DNA of 49,267 bases, from assembly GCF_003236385.1 (NCBI RefSeq), contig NZ_POUA01000010.1:1-49267 (forward strand), written 5' to 3'. The translations under genes and the position numbers were made by a program. The DNA is from Spongiactinospora gelatinilytica. Lineage in GTDB: Bacteria; Actinomycetota; Actinomycetes; Streptosporangiales; Streptosporangiaceae. Under the pieces are notes generated by a model. It saw nothing but the letters and a program-made list of their open reading frames with translations, ran no database searches and was not told the origin of the DNA. This document shows positions 23,719 through 33,075 of the stretch, piece by piece (the first letter of the stretch is position 1; each line of letters starts with the position of its first letter).

Positions 23719-23794
23719 GCGCACGCCTGGACATCCGGCGGCCGGCGTTCCAGGATTGGAAAACGCAGATCTTCGGGGAGTTGGTGACCTGCGC

Positions 23795-26107
23795 ATGATG
23801 CCGAGTGGGCGGCCCGCCCTGCCCGCCGACCCGACGACCTTCGTCGGCAGGCGGAGGGAGACCGCCGACATCCGGCGCACTCTGGAGAGATCCCGTCTGG
23901 TCACCCTGACCGGGATCGCCGGAGTGGGCAAGACCAGAGTCGCGTTGCGCGCGGCGGAGAGCATGCGCAGGGCCTTCGCCGACGGCGTGCTGTTCGTGGA
24001 GCTTTCCAGCCTGTCCGACCCCGACCGGCTGGCCCAGGTCGTCGCTCGGGCCCTGGAGATCCCCGACCAGTCGGTGCCCGATCTCGACATGCTCGCCGAC
24101 TACCTCGCCGACAAGCAGCTCCTGCTCGTCCTGGACACCTGCGAGCACCTGGTCGAGTCCTGCTCGCGCCTGGTGGGCGGGCTGCTGGCCGCCGCCAGGG
24201 GCCTGCGGGTGCTGGCCACCAGCAGGCAGCCGCTGGGCGCGCCCGGCGAGCACTGCCTGGTGATCCGGCCCATGGAGGTCCCCACCCCGGAGGCGGCCGA
24301 GTCCGTCCAGGAGCTGGCGGGCTGCGAGTCCGTCGCCCTCTTCCTGGACCGGGTGAGCGCGGTCGATCCCGGGTTCGAGCTGACCGAACAGAACGCCCTC
24401 GTGGTCGGCGAGCTGTGCCGCCGCCTGGACGGCATCCCCCTGGCCCTGGAACTGGCGGCGGGCCGGGTGCGGTCGCTGCCGATCGAGCGCATCCTGACCC
24501 TGCTCGACGAGCGGTTCTGGGCCGAAGAGGAGGACACCTGCGCGGATGACCCGCGCCACCGCACCATGCAGGCCGCGATCGCGTGGAGTCACGGCCTCTG
24601 CACCGGCGCCGAACGACTGCTGTGGTCGGGCCTTTCGGTTTTCCCCGGCCGTTTCGACCTCGCCGCGGCCGAGGCCGTGTGCGCCCAGGACGGCCTGCCC
24701 CCGCACGAGGTCTACCCGGCGCTGGACGGCCTGGTGGCCAAGTCGATCCTGGTGTGCATCAAGGGCCCGGACCGCACCACCTACCGGATGCCCGACAGCC
24801 TGCGCGAGTACGGCGCGGCGCAGATGCACGAGCACGACCGCCGCCGGGTGCTGCTGGCCCGCCACCGCGACCACTACGCCGAGCTGGCCGCCGCCGCCTC
24901 GGCGGTGCCGCCGCGCGGCGACCAGGCCGAGGAGTGGCAGCGGGTCCGCGAGGAGTGGCCCAACCTGCGGGCCGCGCTGGAGTTCTGCGCGACCGACCCG
25001 GCCGAGACCGACGACGGGGTCAAGCTCGTCATCACGCTGACCTTCCTGTGGGTCGCCTGCGGGATGGGCCGCGAGGGCCGGCACTACATGGAGTGGTTCG
25101 TCCGGGTGGCCAGGCTGGACGACGTGACCCGGGTACGACTCCTGCTGCTGCTCGCGTACGTGATGGTCGCCCAGGGCGATTTACGCACCTCCAGGCAGAC
25201 GCTCGACGAGTGCGCCGACCTGGTGTCGCGGATCGACGCTCCGCCCAGCCACGTCCACCTGGAGAAGATGCGCGGCACCCTGGCCTACGCCGAGGGCGAC
25301 CTCGCCGCCGCCGACGCCCACCTGACCGAGGCGATCGGCCGGCTGCGCGCCGGCGGGTCCCCGGACATCACGGTGCTTGCCGCGATGGTGGAGCTGGGCA
25401 TCACCCGGCTGTGGCTGGGGCGTCCCGACGACGCGGCCGGGGTGCTGCTGGAGTGCAAGCGCGAATGCGAGGACTCCGGCCAGTCGTGGGCGCGCTCGTG
25501 GGCCGACCTCGGGCTCAGCCTGGTGCTACGGGCGCGGGGCGAGCTGCCCGGCGCGCTCGCGCTGGCCAAGGAGGCGCTGCGCACCCAGCGGCGGCTGCAC
25601 GACGCCAGCGGCGCGTCCCTGTGCCTGGAGCTGGTGGCCTGGCTGGTCACCGGCCAGGAGGACCCCGCCTGGGCGGCCCGCCTGCTGCACGCATCGCACG
25701 GCACCTGGCGGCAGGTCCGCAGGCCCCTGTACGGCTCGCCGCACTTCCTGGCCGAGCACACCCGCTGCGAGGAGACCCTGCGCCGGGCGCTCGCGCCCGC
25801 CGAGTACGAGGAGGCCGCGGCCGAGGGCGGCGCGATGTCGATGGACGAGGCCATCGCCTACGCCCTCGGCGAGCGGCCCGGCGCGCCGCAGGCCGCCCCC
25901 AAGGAGCGTGTGACCCCGTTGTCCCCGCGGGAGCTGGAGGTCGCCGACCTGGTGGCCGACGGCCTGACCAACAAGGAGATCGCGCAACGGCTGGTGGTCG
26001 GCCGCCGTACGATCGACACCCACGTCGAGCACATCCTGGCCAAGCTCGACTTCTCCTCGCGCAGCCAGATCGCCGCCTGGGCGATCAGGCACCGGGAAGG
26101 AGGCTGA
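23795..26107 (+). CDS. NB-ARC-type ATPase LuxR-family regulator with TPR-like middle
   Basis: About 770 residues. The N-terminal NTPase domain has Walker A GIAGVGKT (residues 40-47) and Walker B LLLVLDTCEHL, with the STAND/NB-ARC sensor LDGIPLALELAA. A helical winged/TPR-like region fills ~330-690 (repeated Ala/Leu-rich helices, for example AHLTEAIGRLRAGGSPDIT). The C-terminal LuxR helix-turn-helix reads LSPRELEVADLVADGLTNKE and TIDTHVEHILAKLDF. Such regulators switch on target genes when a ligand and ATP bind. The start is taken as ATG 23795; TTG 23756 is possible. The target is unknown. It is followed two bases later by a shorter relative and is not part of the usual metK-priA block. Confidence 0.85.
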   Translation: MMPSGRPALPADPTTFVGRRRETADIRRTLERSRLVTLTGIAGVGKTRVALRAAESMRRAFADGVLFVELSSLSDPDRLAQVVARALEIPDQSVPDLDMLADYLADKQLLLVLDTCEHLVESCSRLVGGLLAAARGLRVLATSRQPLGAPGEHCLVIRPMEVPTPEAAESVQELAGCESVALFLDRVSAVDPGFELTEQNALVVGELCRRLDGIPLALELAAGRVRSLPIERILTLLDERFWAEEEDTCADDPRHRTMQAAIAWSHGLCTGAERLLWSGLSVFPGRFDLAAAEAVCAQDGLPPHEVYPALDGLVAKSILVCIKGPDRTTYRMPDSLREYGAAQMHEHDRRRVLLARHRDHYAELAAAASAVPPRGDQAEEWQRVREEWPNLRAALEFCATDPAETDDGVKLVITLTFLWVACGMGREGRHYMEWFVRVARLDDVTRVRLLLLLAYVMVAQGDLRTSRQTLDECADLVSRIDAPPSHVHLEKMRGTLAYAEGDLAAADAHLTEAIGRLRAGGSPDITVLAAMVELGITRLWLGRPDDAAGVLLECKRECEDSGQSWARSWADLGLSLVLRARGELPGALALAKEALRTQRRLHDASGASLCLELVAWLVTGQEDPAWAARLLHASHGTWRQVRRPLYGSPHFLAEHTRCEETLRRALAPAEYEEAAAEGGAMSMDEAIAYALGERPGAPQAAPKERVTPLSPRELEVADLVADGLTNKEIAQRLVVGRRTIDTHVEHILAKLDFSSRSQIAAWAIRHREGG

Positions 26108-26109
26108 CC

Positions 26110-27468
26110 ATGGCCGAGCGAAGGCCCGGCAACCTCCCCGCGGAGATGACCAGCTTCGTCGGCCGTACCGGTGAACTGGCCGCGGGCGGGCGGATGCTGA
26201 TGGGCGGGCGGCTGCTCACCGTGACCGGGCCGGCGGGCGTGGGCAAGAGCCGGCTGGCGCTGCGCGTCGCCGACGGCGTGCGCAGGCGCTTCCCCGACGG
26301 CCTGTGGCACGTCGAGCTGTCGCAGGTGGCGCCCGCGCACCTGCGTCCGGCCGGAGGGCCGGGCCCGGCCGCCGCCGTCGCCGCCGCCCTCGGGCGGCAC
26401 GGCGAGCACGCCGAGGACGGCGACGGGCTCGCCGAGGCGCTGGGCGACCGCAGGGCGCTGCTCGTGCTCGACACCTGCGAGCACCTGCCCACCGAGATCG
26501 GGCCGCTGGTGGAGGCGCTGCTCCGGGGCGCGCCCCGGGTACGCGTGCTGGCCACCGGCCGCAGCCCGCTCGGCCTGCCCGGCGAGCGGGTGCTGCGGCT
26601 GGACCCGCTGCCCCTCACCGACCCGGCCGACCCCGATCCCGCCTGCCCGTCCGTGGCGCTGTTCGCCGAGCGGGCCGTGGCCGTCGATCCGGACTTCTCG
26701 CTCACCTCGTGCGCCCTCACGGACGTCGCCCAGGTGTGCAGGTGCCTGGACGGCCTGCCGCTGGCGATCGAGCTGGCCGCGGCGCGCACCCGCTCGCTGT
26801 CCATCCCCGAGCTGCTGGAACGGCTCGACGACATGACCACCATGCCCGGCTGGGGCGCCCACACCGCCGCGCCCCGCCACCGCGACCTGCGCGCCGCCAT
26901 CGCCTGGAGCCACGAGCTGTGCCGCCCGGACCAGCGCACGCTTTGGGAGGCGCTGGCGGTGATCGAGGGCGAGTTCGGCGTGGAGGCCGCGCGCCGGGCG
27001 GTGACCCGCGAGGGCGTACTGGTGACCAGGCAGAGCCTGGACGAACTGGTGGACCGGTCGATCCTGCTCAGATCGGGCGATCCGGGCAGGCCGGGGCGCT
27101 ACCGGATGCTGGAGACCTACCGTCGTTTCTGGCTCGACCCGAACTTCGGCCGCCCCGGCCGCGCGGTGCTCGGCCACCGGCTCGGCGCCGGGCGGTGGAG
27201 CCGCCTCCCGCAGGGCGCGGCGGCGGTCCCGGCCCCCGCGCCGGTCCGGATCGGCCGGCCCGTGACGTCCACGCTGACCCCGCGTGAGCTGGAGGTCGCC
27301 GAGCTGATCGCGGAAGGGCTGTCCAATCCGCAGATCGCCGTGCGGCTGTTGATCGCCAAGCGTACTGTGGACGCGCACGTCCGGAACATCCTCGCCAAGG
27401 GCGGCCTCGCCTCCCGCACCCAAGTCGCCGCCTGGTTCGCCGAACGCACCCAATGGGCCGACGCCTAG
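26110..27468 (+). CDS. Compact LuxR-family NTPase regulator lacking the TPR middle
   Basis: A 452-residue relative of the preceding gene, starting two bases after its stop. It has NLPAEMTSFVGRTGELA, Walker A GPAGVGKS (residues 40-47), Walker B LLVLDTCEHLPTE and CLDGLPLAIELAAARTRSLS. The NTPase part then passes through YRMLETYRRFWLDPNFG directly to a short linker and the LuxR domain LTPRELEVAELIAEGLSNPQ with TVDAHVRNILAKGGL. The ~350-residue helical sensor region of its neighbour is missing. The junction is in frame and the HTH is intact, so this is a shortened but probably functional protein and may act with its neighbour as a pair (inference). Confidence 0.85.
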   Translation: MAERRPGNLPAEMTSFVGRTGELAAGGRMLMGGRLLTVTGPAGVGKSRLALRVADGVRRRFPDGLWHVELSQVAPAHLRPAGGPGPAAAVAAALGRHGEHAEDGDGLAEALGDRRALLVLDTCEHLPTEIGPLVEALLRGAPRVRVLATGRSPLGLPGERVLRLDPLPLTDPADPDPACPSVALFAERAVAVDPDFSLTSCALTDVAQVCRCLDGLPLAIELAAARTRSLSIPELLERLDDMTTMPGWGAHTAAPRHRDLRAAIAWSHELCRPDQRTLWEALAVIEGEFGVEAARRAVTREGVLVTRQSLDELVDRSILLRSGDPGRPGRYRMLETYRRFWLDPNFGRPGRAVLGHRLGAGRWSRLPQGAAAVPAPAPVRIGRPVTSTLTPRELEVAELIAEGLSNPQIAVRLLIAKRTVDAHVRNILAKGGLASRTQVAAWFAERTQWADA

Positions 27469-27679: not shown

Positions 27680-29821
27680 GTGAGCAAGGGGAGCGGCGCA
27701 CCGGGCGCGACGGACGCCGGCGGGGGAGAGCAGGGCGAGCTGATCGCCGCCCCCGTGCCCCCCGCGGCACGGCCGGGCGGCGGGGCCGCCAAGGGCGCGG
27801 TGGTGCCCGCCCCCACCTCGCCGGTGGCCAGAGTCGTCGTGGACAACCCGCTGCCGCACCTGGACCGCGAGTTCGACTACCTCGTCCCGGCGGCGCTGCA
27901 CGACAGCGCCGTGCCGGGGTGCCGGGTCCGGGTCAGGTTCGCGGGCAAGCTGCTGGACGGCTTCCTGCTGGAGCGCGCCGAGGACACCGAGCACACCGGC
28001 AGGCTGACCCCCCTGGAACGCGTCATCTCCCCGGAACCGGTGCTCACTCCCGAGATCGCCGCCCTCGCCCGCGCCGTGGCCGACCGCTACGCGGGCACCC
28101 GCGCCGACGTCCTGCGGCTGGCCGTACCGCCGCGCCACGCCCGCGTGGAGGCCGAGGCGCCGGCGGCCCCGCCGGAGGAGACCGGCCTGCCCGCCGACTC
28201 CGGGGCCGGGGTGTGGGACGCCTACCCGGCCGGGCCGTCGTTCCTGGCGGCGCTGGCCGACGGCCGCGCGCCGCGCGCGGTGTGGTCGGCGCTGCCGGGC
28301 GAGTGGGGCGGCCGGCCGCATCCCGCCCCTGAGTGGGCGGTGGCCGTGGCGGCGGCGGCCAGGGCGGCGCTGACGGGCGGCAGGGGCACGCTGGTGGCGG
28401 TGCCTGACGGCAAGGACGTGGCGCTGGCCGACGAGGCGCTGACGGCCGTCCTGGGGCCGGGCAGGCACGTCGCACTGACCGCCGACCTCGGCCCCGCCGA
28501 GCGTTACCGGCGCTGGCTGCGGGTGCTGCGCGGCCAGGTGCGGATCGTGGTGGGCACCCGCGCGGCGGTGTTCGCGCCGGTGCGCGACCTCGGTCTCGCG
28601 GTGGTGTGGGACGACGGCGACGACCTGCTCGCCGAACCGCTCGCCCCGTACCCCCACGCGCGCGAGGTGCTCGCCATCCGCGCCCACCGCTCCGGCGCGG
28701 GCCTGCTGATCGGCGGCTACGCGCGTACGGCGGAGGCCACCCGGCTGGTCGGCGAGCGGTGGGCGCGGCCGATCGTCGCCGCCCGCGCGACGGTCAGGGC
28801 GCGCGCCCCCCGGGTGCGGGCCGCCGGCGAGGACGCCGAACTTGCCCGCGACGAGGCCGCGCAGGCGGCGCGGCTGCCCACGCTCGCCTGGCGGGCGCTG
28901 CGGCAGGGCCTGGAACGCGGCCCGGTGCTCGTCCAGGTGCCGCGCCGGGGCTACCTGCCGGTGCTGGCCTGCCAGAACTGCCGGGCCGCGGCCCGCTGCC
29001 CCCAGGTGCCCGACGCGCCGGGCGGGCCGCGCTGCGGCGGGCCGCTGGCGCTGCGCGGCGGGCACGCCGTGCCGTACTGCCGGTGGTGCGGCAGGATCGC
29101 GGGGCAGTGGCGGTGCTCCTCCTGCGGCGCCACGCGGATGCGCGCCGCCGTGGTGGGCGCCCGGCGTACCGCCGAGGAGCTGGGCCGCGCCTTCCCGCAG
29201 GTGACGATCCGCACCTCGGGGCGTGACGGAGTGCTCGCGCGGGTCGGCGAGGGCAGGGCGCTGGTGGTGGCCACGCCCGGCGCCGAGCCGCACGCGGCGG
29301 GCGGTTACGCGGCGGGCGTGCTGCTGGACGCCTGGGCCCTGCTGGGCCGGCCCGACCTGCGCGCGGCCGAGGAGACCGTGCGCCGCTGGATGAACGCCGC
29401 CGCCCTGCTGCGCCCCGGCGCGGAGCTGGTCGTGCCCGCCGACGCGGGGCTGGCCGCCGTGCAGGCCCTGGTGCGCTGGGACCCGGTGACCCACGCCGAA
29501 CGCGAGCTGTCCGAGCGGATAGAACTCGCTTTCCCCCCGGCCGTGCGCCTGGCGTCGCTGACCGGGGTCCCCAAGGCGGTCAGGGAGCTCCTGGGCGAGG
29601 CCCGCCTGCCCGCCGCGGCCCAGGTGCTCGGCCCGGTGCCGGTGGACGCGCCACGCCGTACTACGGGCGAGGAAACCACCAGGGAGCGCGCGCTGATCCG
29701 CGTCCCGCGCGCGGACGGCACGGCGCTCGCCGCCGCCCTGAAGTCCGTCGCGGGCGCGCGTTCGGCGCGTAAGGCACCCGACGTCGTCCGGGTATGCGTC
29801 GATCCCGTTGAAGGGATCTAG
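27680..29821 (+). CDS. priA: PriA-like primosomal protein, probably non-helicase
   Basis: A 713-residue member of the actinobacterial PriA family. The N-terminal DNA-binding domain is present (VARVVVDNPLPHLDREFDYL, VRVRFAGKLLDGFLL). The motif I region reads GRGTLVAVPDGKDVALADEA, without the Gly-Lys-Thr P-loop, and the DEAH position reads AVVWDDGDDLLAEPL. ATP-driven unwinding is therefore unlikely, as noted for other actinobacterial PriA proteins. The zinc-binding region is retained (LACQNCRAAARC, CGGPL, CRWCGR, CSSCGA). It may act as a structural replication-restart factor. It is expected after metK in this phylum and ends 72 bases before the next gene. Confidence 0.88.
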   Translation: MSKGSGAPGATDAGGGEQGELIAAPVPPAARPGGGAAKGAVVPAPTSPVARVVVDNPLPHLDREFDYLVPAALHDSAVPGCRVRVRFAGKLLDGFLLERAEDTEHTGRLTPLERVISPEPVLTPEIAALARAVADRYAGTRADVLRLAVPPRHARVEAEAPAAPPEETGLPADSGAGVWDAYPAGPSFLAALADGRAPRAVWSALPGEWGGRPHPAPEWAVAVAAAARAALTGGRGTLVAVPDGKDVALADEALTAVLGPGRHVALTADLGPAERYRRWLRVLRGQVRIVVGTRAAVFAPVRDLGLAVVWDDGDDLLAEPLAPYPHAREVLAIRAHRSGAGLLIGGYARTAEATRLVGERWARPIVAARATVRARAPRVRAAGEDAELARDEAAQAARLPTLAWRALRQGLERGPVLVQVPRRGYLPVLACQNCRAAARCPQVPDAPGGPRCGGPLALRGGHAVPYCRWCGRIAGQWRCSSCGATRMRAAVVGARRTAEELGRAFPQVTIRTSGRDGVLARVGEGRALVVATPGAEPHAAGGYAAGVLLDAWALLGRPDLRAAEETVRRWMNAAALLRPGAELVVPADAGLAAVQALVRWDPVTHAERELSERIELAFPPAVRLASLTGVPKAVRELLGEARLPAAAQVLGPVPVDAPRRTTGEETTRERALIRVPRADGTALAAALKSVAGARSARKAPDVVRVCVDPVEGI

Positions 29822-29881
29822 TCGGCGGGTTTTCCGGCGTATCGCGAATCGCCCCGATTCGCCGCGCCCTCGGTAAGCCGT

Positions 29882-29887
29882 TAGTTT
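29882..29887 (+). promoter_or_regulatory. -10 element for a leaderless transcript of the first paralogue
   Basis: TAGTTT lies exactly six bases before the GTG start at 29894, and there is no ribosome-binding site. This is the classic layout of an actinobacterial leaderless gene whose mRNA begins at the start codon. Confidence 0.65.
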
Positions 29888-29893
29888 CTCCCT

Positions 29894-31606
29894 GTGTCGA
29901 TCGAATGGGTGAATAGGGCCATCGACGATCTGCGCGCCTGGGGGCGCGCACACGGCGTCGACGTGGACGTTGACGAAGCGCGGCTGCTCTGCGACTACGC
30001 GAGCGACTATCTGGAGGTCAGGCGGCTCGGCGACTTCGCCCCCGAGACCTTCGACGAACTGCTGCTCAGCATCTACCCGCGCAAGGTGATCGCCCCGCCG
30101 GAGAGCGCGCGCGAAACGCTCGCCGCCGCTCGCACACTGGTCGACTTCCTCCAGTCGGCCGGACACGTTCCCGGCTCCACCGCGGTGCGGATGAGGGCCA
30201 CGCTCGATCGCGTCGAGCCGGAGATGCCCGCCGCCCTCGCCGACACCTCGCGCTACGGCATGGCCAAGAGCATCTTCAGTGCGATCGGCCCCGAAGCGCT
30301 CGACGACCCGACGCCGGTGACCCTCGTTCCCGGGCAGCGCGCCGACGATGCCCAGGCCGGCGACGCCCACGAGCTGTGCGACTGCGCGTCCTGCTCGCCG
30401 CTGCCGGCCGTGCGGCTGGCCGGGCGCACCGGCCTGGCCGCCGCCGCCCGCGAGGTACCGCTGCTCGCCGACGCCCACCGGCTGGCCGAATGGATGCTCG
30501 CCGAGGGCCGCATCCCGACCGTCAAGGGCGGGCTGCGGGTGAAGGACGCCGCCGCGGCCTCCGCCGCGCTGGCGCTGCCCGAACCGGCGCTGCTGTGGGG
30601 CCTGGCCGTCCACACGGGCGTCCTGAAGGTCACCGGCGCGTCCGTCGCGGCGGGCGGCGGGTTCGCCCCGCCCGCGGCGCGCGCCGACGACGACCTGCTC
30701 GACCTGTGGGCCGGCACGGTGAAGTTCCTGGTCGAGCGGGCCACCGCCGGGCGGGTGACCGGCAGCCCCGCCCTGGACGACCGGCTCTACGACCTCTGCG
30801 ACATGCTCTACCGGGTCCAGGTGCCGGTCATGACCCAGGTGGTCGCCGACCGCCTGGCCGAGACCGGGGCGGCCGGCGAGGGCGGAGAGGCCGATGCGGC
30901 CCCCGACTTCGGCCGGGCCGTGGCCCGGCTGGCCTACTGCGGGCTCGTCGAGGTCATCGAAGGCGACATGCTGACGCTGACCCCGCTCGGCGTGTGGGGG
31001 ATGCGCGAGCTGTACCGCGACCTCGGCATCGACGCCCCTGAGGCCCCCGACCTCGCCGGGGCGGGCGCGCACGACCTGATCGACGCGCTGCTCAGCGGGG
31101 CGCCCGCCGAGCAGGCCGAACAGGACATCTCCCGATGGCTGGCGCACCGCACCCCCGAAGGCGCGGCGGCCGACCTGCTCGCCGCCGCCGGCGGCAAGCC
31201 CGCGGTGGCCCGCGGCCTGGCGGTGACCATCGTGGACCGGCTGGGCCCGGAGGCCGAGCCCGCCGTACGCGGCCACCTGGCCGACCCGGAGCTGCGCCCG
31301 TACGTCATCCACTGGCTCACCTCGCGCGGCCTGCCCACCCCCGCGCTCACCCAGGAGGAGCTGCTGTGGATGAGCGTGGACATGCTGGCCCTCGCGATGC
31401 CGGCGGCCGGCGACGACCTCGACGAGTTCGCCGCCAACATCGCCGCCTCCGGCCCGCCCGCCCACATGATCGAGGAGATGTGGCGGGTCGATCACCCCGA
31501 TGTCGCCGAGGTCCTGGAGTTGCTGGGCAGGGCGCTGACCGACGACACGGTGGCCAAGATCGCGCGCAAGGCGGCCTTCAAAGCGCGGTCCCGATCCATC
31601 GGATGA
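29894..31606 (+). CDS. Protein of unknown function with CxCxxC motif and HEAT-like tail, paralogue 1
   Basis: A 570-residue soluble protein of no recognised family. Residues 1-~135 form a helical domain (AIDDLRAWGRAHGVDVDVDE, FDELLLSIYPRKVIAPPESA) that its neighbour lacks. A cysteine cluster CDCASC (Cys162, Cys164, Cys167) follows an acidic linker and could bind zinc or iron. The middle has repeats of the form PLLADAHRLAEWMLAEGR and LLWGLAVHTGVLKVTG. A winged-helix-like segment (VARLAYCGLVEVIEGDMLTL) leads to a C-terminal part with HEAT-like helices (RGLAVTIVDRLGPEAEPAV) and the tail KIARKAAFKARSRSIG. The gene lies between priA and def and is followed 38 bases later by a paralogue. It may have a housekeeping or regulatory role; no catalytic motif is visible. 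Confidence 0.85.
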   Translation: MSIEWVNRAIDDLRAWGRAHGVDVDVDEARLLCDYASDYLEVRRLGDFAPETFDELLLSIYPRKVIAPPESARETLAAARTLVDFLQSAGHVPGSTAVRMRATLDRVEPEMPAALADTSRYGMAKSIFSAIGPEALDDPTPVTLVPGQRADDAQAGDAHELCDCASCSPLPAVRLAGRTGLAAAAREVPLLADAHRLAEWMLAEGRIPTVKGGLRVKDAAAASAALALPEPALLWGLAVHTGVLKVTGASVAAGGGFAPPAARADDDLLDLWAGTVKFLVERATAGRVTGSPALDDRLYDLCDMLYRVQVPVMTQVVADRLAETGAAGEGGEADAAPDFGRAVARLAYCGLVEVIEGDMLTLTPLGVWGMRELYRDLGIDAPEAPDLAGAGAHDLIDALLSGAPAEQAEQDISRWLAHRTPEGAAADLLAAAGGKPAVARGLAVTIVDRLGPEAEPAVRGHLADPELRPYVIHWLTSRGLPTPALTQEELLWMSVDMLALAMPAAGDDLDEFAANIAASGPPAHMIEEMWRVDHPDVAEVLELLGRALTDDTVAKIARKAAFKARSRSIG

Positions 31607-31632
31607 CGTACGCGGCTGTGGCCGGTGTGCAG

Positions 31633-31638
31633 TAAGTT
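31633..31638 (+). promoter_or_regulatory. -10 element for a leaderless transcript of the second paralogue
   Basis: TAAGTT ends six bases before the GTG start at 31645. The spacing is identical to that before the first paralogue at 29894. This suggests the second gene has its own promoter rather than depending only on read-through. Confidence 0.6.
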
Positions 31639-31644
31639 TCGTGA

Positions 31645-33075
31645 GTGGCAAAGAGCGCGAACAAGGGAAACGTCTTTGATCTCGGCGAGCTGCGGAGAGC
31701 GGCCGGCGACCTGGGTCTCGACGACCTGACCGGCATGGCCGGCGTCGGCGCGGCGGGCCCGGACCACGCCGGAGGCGAGGCCGCGGCGTGCGGCTGCCCC
31801 GACTGCGACGCGGAGGTGCTGAGCTTCCCGCCGGTCGCGCTGGCCGATGCGGCCGAGCTGGCCGCCGCGGTGCCCGCGGTGCCGCTGGTCGCCGACGCCC
31901 GCCGCCTCGCGGCCTGGACCGGCGCCAGGGAGCTGACCGCCGAGCGCCTGCTGCCGCTCCCCGAGGCCCGGGCGGCCGTGGCCCATCTCCGGCTGCCGAT
32001 CCCCGGCGACGTCCTGGCCGCCGCGGGCTCCGCGCGCGATCTTCCGCTGCTCCACCTGCTGTGGGTGGTCGCGGTCAACACCGGCCTGGTGCGGATCACC
32101 GGGATGCTGGCCGAGCCCGGCCCGGTCACCGACACCGCCACGATGGACTTCTGGGACGGCGTGGTCATGGACGTCCTGGACCGCGCCGACGAGGGCCTGA
32201 CCGGTTCGGCCGTCGTCGATGACCACCTCGCCGAGATGCTCGCCACGATGTACTCCGTCAGCGCGGGCATCGCCGAGCCGACCCTGGTCAAGGGCATCCT
32301 CCAGTCGCACGAGGTGGCCTGCGAGGCGCGCCCCGACGACATGCGCCGGCTGACCGCGACGCTCCCCGGCGAGCTGTCCCGCGCCCTGGCCCTGCTGGCC
32401 TACTGCGGCCTGCTGGAGGAGACCGCGGAGGGCAGGCACCGGCTCACCTCCCTCGGGCTGTGGGCGGTGCGCCAGGACCTTCTGCGCGAGGGCCACGACG
32501 CGCCCACCGTCGGGGAGGTCGCGGTGTTCGCCGACCTCGGCGCGGCCGAGCTGGTGGACACCCTGCTGGCCGGCGACGGCGCGCCGAGCGCGGTCTCGGT
32601 GTGGCTGGAGCGGCGCACCCCCGAGGCCGCCGCCCGCGAGCTGATCGAGGTCGCCGCGTCCGGCACCCCCGGCAGGCGGGCGACCGCCGTGACCGTCCTT
32701 TCGGAGCTGGGCCCCGAGGCCGAGGAGCCCTTCCGGGCCGCGCTCGGCGACCCGGTCGTGTGGCGCTACGCCGCCTCCTGGCTGCACGTCCGCGACCTGC
32801 CCGCGCCCGCGCTCACCCCGGAAGACGGCGACTGGATCGCGGTGGACACGCTGGCCTCGCTGCTCTACGTCGAGGGCGGCCCCGAGGAGATGGCGGGCTT
32901 CGACGTGCTCGCCTCACAGGAGGAGCTGGCCCGCCTGGTGGAGGAGATGCCGAGGGTCGACCACCCGGACGCGCTGCCCGCGCTCGACATGCTCGCCGCC
33001 CACCACCCCGACGGCGAGATCGCCAAGGCGGCCCGCAAGTCCGCCATGCGCGCCCGGTCCCAGGCGATCGGCTGA
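31645..33075 (+). CDS. Protein of unknown function with CxCxxC motif, paralogue 2
   Basis: A 476-residue paralogue of the preceding gene. The shared features are, in order: a CGCPDC cluster (Cys49, Cys51, Cys54), PLVADARRLAAWTGARELT, LLHLLWVVAVNTGLVRITG, LLAYCGLLEETAEGRHRLTS, the HEAT-like AVTVLSELGPEAEEPFRAAL, ALTPEDGDWIAVDTLASLLY and the tail KAARKSAMRARSQAIG. It lacks the N-terminal ~110-residue helical domain of paralogue 1. The pair therefore arose by duplication, followed by gain or loss of that domain. No enzyme motif is visible. A metal-binding cluster next to a possible winged helix raises the idea of a redox- or metal-sensing regulator (speculation). Confidence 0.83.
   Translation: MAKSANKGNVFDLGELRRAAGDLGLDDLTGMAGVGAAGPDHAGGEAAACGCPDCDAEVLSFPPVALADAAELAAAVPAVPLVADARRLAAWTGARELTAERLLPLPEARAAVAHLRLPIPGDVLAAAGSARDLPLLHLLWVVAVNTGLVRITGMLAEPGPVTDTATMDFWDGVVMDVLDRADEGLTGSAVVDDHLAEMLATMYSVSAGIAEPTLVKGILQSHEVACEARPDDMRRLTATLPGELSRALALLAYCGLLEETAEGRHRLTSLGLWAVRQDLLREGHDAPTVGEVAVFADLGAAELVDTLLAGDGAPSAVSVWLERRTPEAAARELIEVAASGTPGRRATAVTVLSELGPEAEEPFRAALGDPVVWRYAASWLHVRDLPAPALTPEDGDWIAVDTLASLLYVEGGPEEMAGFDVLASQEELARLVEEMPRVDHPDALPALDMLAAHHPDGEIAKAARKSAMRARSQAIG

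Follow-up and report, generated by a model that had tools for sequence, protein, structure and literature searches.

What do the two adjacent genes that separate priA from def in the chromosome of a soil actinomycete encode? The question arises from a 49,267-nucleotide stretch of Spongiactinospora gelatinilytica DNA (Streptosporangiaceae; contig NZ_POUA01000010.1, positions 1 to 49,267; the window hereafter), in which genes A and B lie head to tail between priA and def (Table 1). A reading made from the letters of this stretch (the sequence-only reading) had presented them as an undescribed family of tandem paralogues with a CxCxxC cluster, conceivably a metal- or redox-responsive complex tied to replication restart or to protein maturation. 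The comparisons reported here place A and B, with near certainty, in a wider family that includes Ccr1 (SCO1842) of Streptomyces coelicolor. At a rough probability of 45%, we read them as acidic winged-helix/HEAT adaptors that would influence transcription as Ccr1 does, a function that we infer.

Both open reading frames (ORFs) were confirmed as given and their products are 37% identical (BLASTP, 175/478 columns, E 9e-58), which makes them real tandem paralogues, as had been proposed and well beyond anything that chance would give; as between A and B, the additional N-terminal domain is indeed found in A only. Scans of Pfam, NCBIfam and PADLOC assigned neither protein to a family. The reported absence of an enzyme motif was borne out, with no enzyme family for A or B in Pfam or NCBIfam; the best reading takes both as non-catalytic proteins without a recognised enzyme domain. 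A BTB match of A was weak (E 0.2) and was dismissed as chance, as were four NCBIfam families, each found in a single member among 34 relatives (best E 0.0044). Ten matches to PDB sequences obtained with A (allophycocyanins, chalcone synthase and ATP synthase epsilon chain among them; E 0.073 to 0.64) were also dismissed, and the family profile gave zero matches against PDB at E <= 1. No paper on the Streptosporangiaceae pair was found among the matches listed from the open-access PMC literature.

The connection to a studied protein came through Ccr1, a protein of 447 amino acids whose knock-out was made as W242* (PMC11272600). The published primer SCO1842_RTPCRFw matches 4 of 392 Streptomyces genomes; three of the four primer-matched ORFs have both the 447-residue start and Trp at residue 242, and the fourth fits the family, without the 447-residue start. 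A profile built from A, B, single copies, the Jiangella relative and a Streptomyces paralogue (copy 1) matched the four Ccr1 ORFs with E 4.5e-64 to 1e-61. Alignment by hhalign of a profile of A and B only (17 rows) with one of Ccr1 only (5 rows) gave a probability of 99.7 and E 7.8e-27 over columns 160-563; the homologous stretch begins with the first winged-helix-like unit and reaches the C-terminal helix. The family can thus no longer be called wholly undescribed, having Ccr1 as a distant relative. The check for similarity to a characterised family came out divided, with no Pfam or NCBIfam family on one side and this distant relative on the other. Judged by position and tree, A and B are not orthologues of Ccr1 itself, because they lie between priA and def and Ccr1 forms a separate clade in the sco1840-1845 neighbourhood. 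Ccr1 also has neither the N-terminal domain of A nor CxCxxC, is less acidic and is induced in co-culture, whereas A and B are arranged in tandem, strongly acidic and preceded by leaderless-type promoters.

According to the available text of the Ccr1 study (PMC11272600), the knock-out changed the expression of 253 genes more than 5-fold and lowered several secondary metabolites, with RED, CDA, DES and ACT named as affected. The same text reports a 6.2-fold induction of Ccr1 in co-culture, a similar requirement for the Streptomyces nigrescens homologue HEK616_16340, and helix-turn-helix (HTH) and HEAT signatures in some homologues. In KEGG, at the cut-off used in that 2024 paper, homologues were seen in Streptomyces and Kitasatospora only.

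An AlphaFold2 model of A, built from 58 aligned sequences, has a mean predicted local distance difference test score (pLDDT) of 90.7 and a predicted template modelling score (pTM) of 0.68. Residues 131-133 and 135-161, in a linker read as disordered, have a pLDDT under 50; residues 166-386 modelled alone reached pLDDT 94.8 and pTM 0.91. The second of two winged-helix-like units resembles JetA (VIA-align Z 8.2, 84 residues, root-mean-square deviation (rmsd) 2.4; Z 8.5 in another comparison) and MepR (Z 8.1, 75 residues, rmsd 2.5), so that the winged-helix matches of A are to JetA and MarR/PadR-type proteins, with middling Z up to 8.5. Residues 388-483 are similar, again at a middling level, to the HEAT repeats of karyopherin-beta2 (Z 7.5, 93 residues, rmsd 3.2). 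Of 34 relatives, three match Pfam HEAT_2 (PF13646) at E <= 0.1 (best E 2.6e-5); A itself does not. A Foldseek search against PDB, made with the whole model and with residues 166-386, returned nothing at E <= 0.001. The winged-helix-like and HEAT-like parts that had been proposed from the sequence are supported by the model and, at a middling level, by these matches. The basic tail is also real, being common to most of 34 aligned relatives with the consensus AKAARKAAFKARS.

The N-terminal domain of A is shared by a third paralogue of the same genome (C), by Jiangella and by the single copies of Thermomonosporaceae. Given this distribution, it is probably ancestral, and B would have lost it; a gain in A is the less likely course.

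Winged helices and a basic tail raise the possibility that A and B coat DNA with low specificity as nucleoid-associated proteins (NAPs), as proposed for Ccr1. This direct DNA binding is the main rival to the adaptor reading, and on the charge of the proteins we consider it unlikely. Its appeal lies in the winged-helix-like folds, in the conserved basic C-terminal helix (net +5 in A) and in the slightly positive unit 1 of A (net +3; mean +1 over 33 rows). Yet A and B carry net charges of -33 and -36, values that speak against low-specificity DNA binding while being compatible with it all the same, and their median isoelectric points (pI) are 4.45 and 4.67 (11 rows each). Unit 2 of A has a net charge of -11 (mean -15.6 over 33 orthologues), the segment of unit 1 at the position of a recognition helix appears hydrophobic (PALLWGLAVHTG, as read from sequence and model), and all 54 non-Ccr1 rows are net negative, from -11 to -94. 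Ccr1 is less acidic, with net charges of +8 to -13 in five rows and a median pI of 5.69 (range 5.39-9.4). On balance, the charge pattern would speak for protein contacts over DNA coating, and the acidity of A and B, together with unit 2 at -11, is what leads us to favour acidic winged-helix/HEAT adaptors.

As such adaptors, A and B would broadly change transcription, as Ccr1 does for secondary metabolism, and would do so mainly via protein partners and not by classical sequence-specific DNA binding. Several points weigh against this. Ccr1 is a remote relative (BLASTP 32% over 239 residues) on its own long branch (1.53), and because it is remote, long-branched and less acidic, its function may not carry over to A and B. 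Its authors call it NAP-like, which implies DNA binding (PMC11272600); a DNA-binding assay was not found in the available text of that paper, where 'EMSA' (electrophoretic mobility shift assay) has 0 occurrences. The structural matches do not exceed Z 8.5, with nothing from Foldseek at the threshold given above. The pair sits inside a housekeeping block, and searches of the open-access PMC literature gave no experiment on A or B.

With A as query and E <= 0.001 taken as a match, relatives were found in 32 of 60 related genomes and in 30 of 396 genomes from a phylum-wide sample (both sets include the own genome). A profile of 34 relatives searched against 84,980 species genomes yielded at least 415 confirmed relatives, of which the best 80 were analysed; the counts over 58 loci that follow come from these best 80, and since the 80 are the best matches to A, the co-occurrence count leans to close relatives. 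Both genes are present in 58 of the 80, always in the order priA-A-B (58/58) and followed by def in 57/58. The pair is therefore conserved together, as the sequence-only reading implied, and an independent, scattered distribution of the two genes was not what we observed. The other 22 loci consist of four in which a lone copy is placed between priA and def (Actinomadura alba, Actinocorallia populi, an uncultured Thermomonosporaceae bacterium and one further metagenome-assembled genome), one Jiangella locus and 17 Streptomyces rows. Of 40 regions examined, the pair was at priA in 14 from the same GTDB family (L066 among these lacks a def match), and a single relative took the priA place in 10 (L075, L076, L078, L081, L082, L085-L088, L090); the L088 region ends before priA, and in L090 priA is reversed and def unmatched.

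Such fixed surroundings could mean that A and B work with PriA, deformylase and Fmt in replication restart or in processing of the N-terminal formyl-Met. The constant order, the presence of a lone copy in this position elsewhere in the GTDB family, and the appeal that leaderless mRNAs would lend to a link with formyl-Met starts are all in line with this. We nevertheless find it very improbable: the 11 related genomes without an A match all keep fmt, and priA was seen in 10 of them; def lies 2.9 to 5.1 kb from B in three of the 58 loci and is not seen in one; and relatives are found elsewhere in Streptomyces and beside IclR genes. The functional tie to either process is not sustained by this pattern. 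In the genomes without an A match, priA and def are direct neighbours in three, priA is 2.6 kb from fmt in L204, and the stretch of L212 ends before priA. In six of them (L203, L205-L208, L210) priA adjoins fmt in the opposite direction, with def unmatched in the stretch fetched. Because single-copy relatives are found between priA and def in the same GTDB family, the location is probably older than the duplication, and the neighbourhood would be an inherited position.

The cysteines had drawn attention in the sequence-only reading. Over the 58 pairs CxCxxC is present in both proteins in 21, at the same place before a conserved PPV motif, in A only in 31, in B only in one and in neither in five (Planotetraspora pairs such as L123, L125, L126 and L135), and it occurs in 0 of the 22 other relatives of the same 80-locus set. 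The expected conservation of the three cysteines thus holds for A (52/58) and fails for B (22/58). In A the cluster is kept within an otherwise variable linker, and for that reason it probably has some role there. As CxCxxC is absent from 36 of 58 B, from 6 of 58 A and from all 22 other relatives, the number of cysteines is not maintained, and the cluster is, by its distribution, a branch-specific feature that is often missing and not a family-defining metal or redox site. A heteromeric complex in which three plus three cysteines share one metal and respond to metal or redox state could account for the retention in A and for the 21 pairs with matching clusters; the same losses in both proteins, the pair with B only and the five pairs with neither make it very unlikely. 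For adaptors of the type we favour, CxCxxC beside the linker might serve as an accessory specific to a branch, perhaps a clamp that depends on a metal or a disulfide. We would caution against taking the cluster as the key to function.

The claim of a leaderless-type promoter for both genes at equal spacing stood up, with predicted -10 boxes exactly 6 nt before GTG in each case. A TAnnnT box lies 6 nt upstream of the A start in 57/58 loci and 7 nt upstream in 1/58; TAAGTT is present before B in 58/58, at 6 nt in 56 and at 7 nt in two, and is itself preceded by a conserved GTGnAG. Paralogue C has a similar box 6 nt before GTG in 8/8 loci, and among 11 single copies the box is at 6 nt in eight, at 7 nt in one (L154) and not visible in two (L081, L090). 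A Shine-Dalgarno-like GGAG precedes the ATG of Streptomyces copy 1 in 14/17 rows. The mean upstream information is 1.25 bits per column for A (58 loci) and 1.08 for B (56 loci, L129 and L141 having been dropped for misassigned starts), and eight neighbouring genes gave 0.14 to 0.85, values possibly lowered by wrong script-set starts. The promoter stretches 29854-29887 (A) and 31627-31640 (B) are more conserved than those of the eight neighbours, and each has its own extended block; within that limit on the neighbours' values, the idea that such conservation is usual for this block was set aside.

A regulon sharing either promoter was considered and rejected. The A pattern (CCGATTCGC-N14..20-CCGTTA) and the B block (GTGnAGTAAGTTKC) each have one occurrence in the whole of their own genome, and a looser B pattern (AGTAAGTT-N6-RTG, one mismatch) was found at 18 places there against 23 for the reversed control, so that there is no sign of a regulon.

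In a maximum-likelihood tree of 59 rows, A and B are sister clades (97/99), each supported at 100/100 and borne on a long stem (0.65 and 0.71). This fits one duplication at the base of the A+B group, most likely of a single-copy gene already situated between priA and def. C, Ccr1 and Streptomyces copy 1 form one clade each; the 11 single copies do not form one clade, and L172 and L090 are long branches of unsure placement. C shares with A the overall architecture, including the N-terminal domain, and has TAGCCT 6 nt before GTG; it differs from A and B in its position beside an IclR gene, its pI of about 4.05 and its lack of the cysteine cluster. The IclR gene, presumably NdgR, lies beside C in its own genome and in 7/7 clade-C loci of other genomes (L077, L091-L096); for three of the eight C loci, Pfam showed IclR_C and HTH_IclR in the neighbouring protein, and the rest were named by eye. 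L083, which has C as its best match and yet lies outside the C clade, shows no IclR match.

Streptomyces copy 1 (L079 and the 17 rows L162-L169, L171, L173-L180) has the same core as A, with a best-segment identity of 39-46% in 17 rows, which in 14 of them extends over only about the last 210 residues. It is unlike A and B in its GGAG before ATG (14/17), in having no CxCxxC and in its neighbourhood. SCO1474, tentatively taken for the equivalent gene of S. coelicolor at the priA-fmt position, was dropped: the literature on it (PMC3610822) led nowhere, and the examined Streptomyces relatives are located elsewhere. In three relatives the family core precedes a PRiA4_ORF3 domain (PF07929; E 6.6e-55, 8.5e-36 and 4.6e-29); neither A nor B matches this domain at E <= 1. 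A further relative (L181 4133-6625) has an N-terminal DUF1841 domain (E 5e-12).

As judged from these comparisons, Ccr1 is one branch of a family that extends across Actinomycetota and includes a tandem pair, an IclR-adjacent third copy, PRiA4_ORF3 fusions and strikingly conserved leaderless-type promoters. Ccr1 had been published as a protein with an effect on antibiotic production and as confined to Streptomyces and Kitasatospora, a range that is now extended. Streptosporangiaceae are known as antibiotic producers, and their tandem pair provides new systems for learning what the Ccr1 family does, for which the family alignment and domain limits are a basis for testing. A bolder picture, to which we would give only a slim chance, is that spore-forming actinomycetes have in A and B a dedicated pair of acidic global regulators, which would act on the transcription machinery as an obligate hetero-oligomer and would set their own amount by means of their two unusually conserved leaderless promoters. 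In some genera the pair would also respond to metal or redox state through shared 3+3 cysteines, and with Ccr1 and C it would form a phylum-wide, hitherto unrecognised regulatory family that controls secondary metabolism.

Table 1. Coordinates of the gene pair, its parts and its relatives (positions in the window, or in the locus named)
Feature	Position	Strand	Remarks
Gene A	29894..31606	+	570 aa, GTG start; ORF confirmed
Gene B	31645..33075	+	476 aa, GTG start; same core as A, without N-terminal domain
Conserved block CCGATTCGC of A promoter, -40 to -32	29854..29862	+	conserved columns, 58 loci
-10 box TAGTTT of A	29882..29887	+	6 nt before GTG, leaderless type
-10 box TAAGTT of B	31633..31638	+	6 nt before GTG
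A N-terminal helical domain, about residues 1-129	29894..30280	+	model, alignment
CxCxxC of A, residues 162-167 (CDCASC)	30377..30394	+	edge of low-confidence linker; in 52/58 orthologues
A winged-helix-like unit 1, about residues 166-258	30389..30667	+	model secondary structure; barely covered by structure search
A winged-helix-like unit 2, about residues 259-384	30668..31045	+	VIA-align matches to JetA, MepR
A HEAT-like helical repeats, about residues 385-545	31046..31528	+	VIA-align to karyopherin-beta2; HEAT_2 in relatives
A basic C-terminal helix	31529..31603	+	net charge +5
CxCxxC of B, residues 49-54 (CGCPDC)	31789..31806	+	in 22/58 orthologues
Third paralogue C of own genome	L003 76-1809	minus	
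Core + C-terminal PRiA4_ORF3 fusions	L197 412-2319, L191 3041-4726, L190 3458-5290		

Upstream of the pair, PriA (window 27680-29821) is given by Pfam only a 3'-DNA-binding domain and no helicase domain; a degenerate helicase is common in actinobacterial PriA. The window also contains, between metK and priA, two tandem LuxR-type regulators with AAA/STAND-like domains (23756-26107 and about 26161-27468). The second of them (435 residues as scanned) has AAA and GerE matches but nothing of TPR type at E <= 0.001, which gives it the look of a protein without its central part. The metK-to-priA gap measures 4.0 kb in the window, compared with 4.2 kb in S. rosea.

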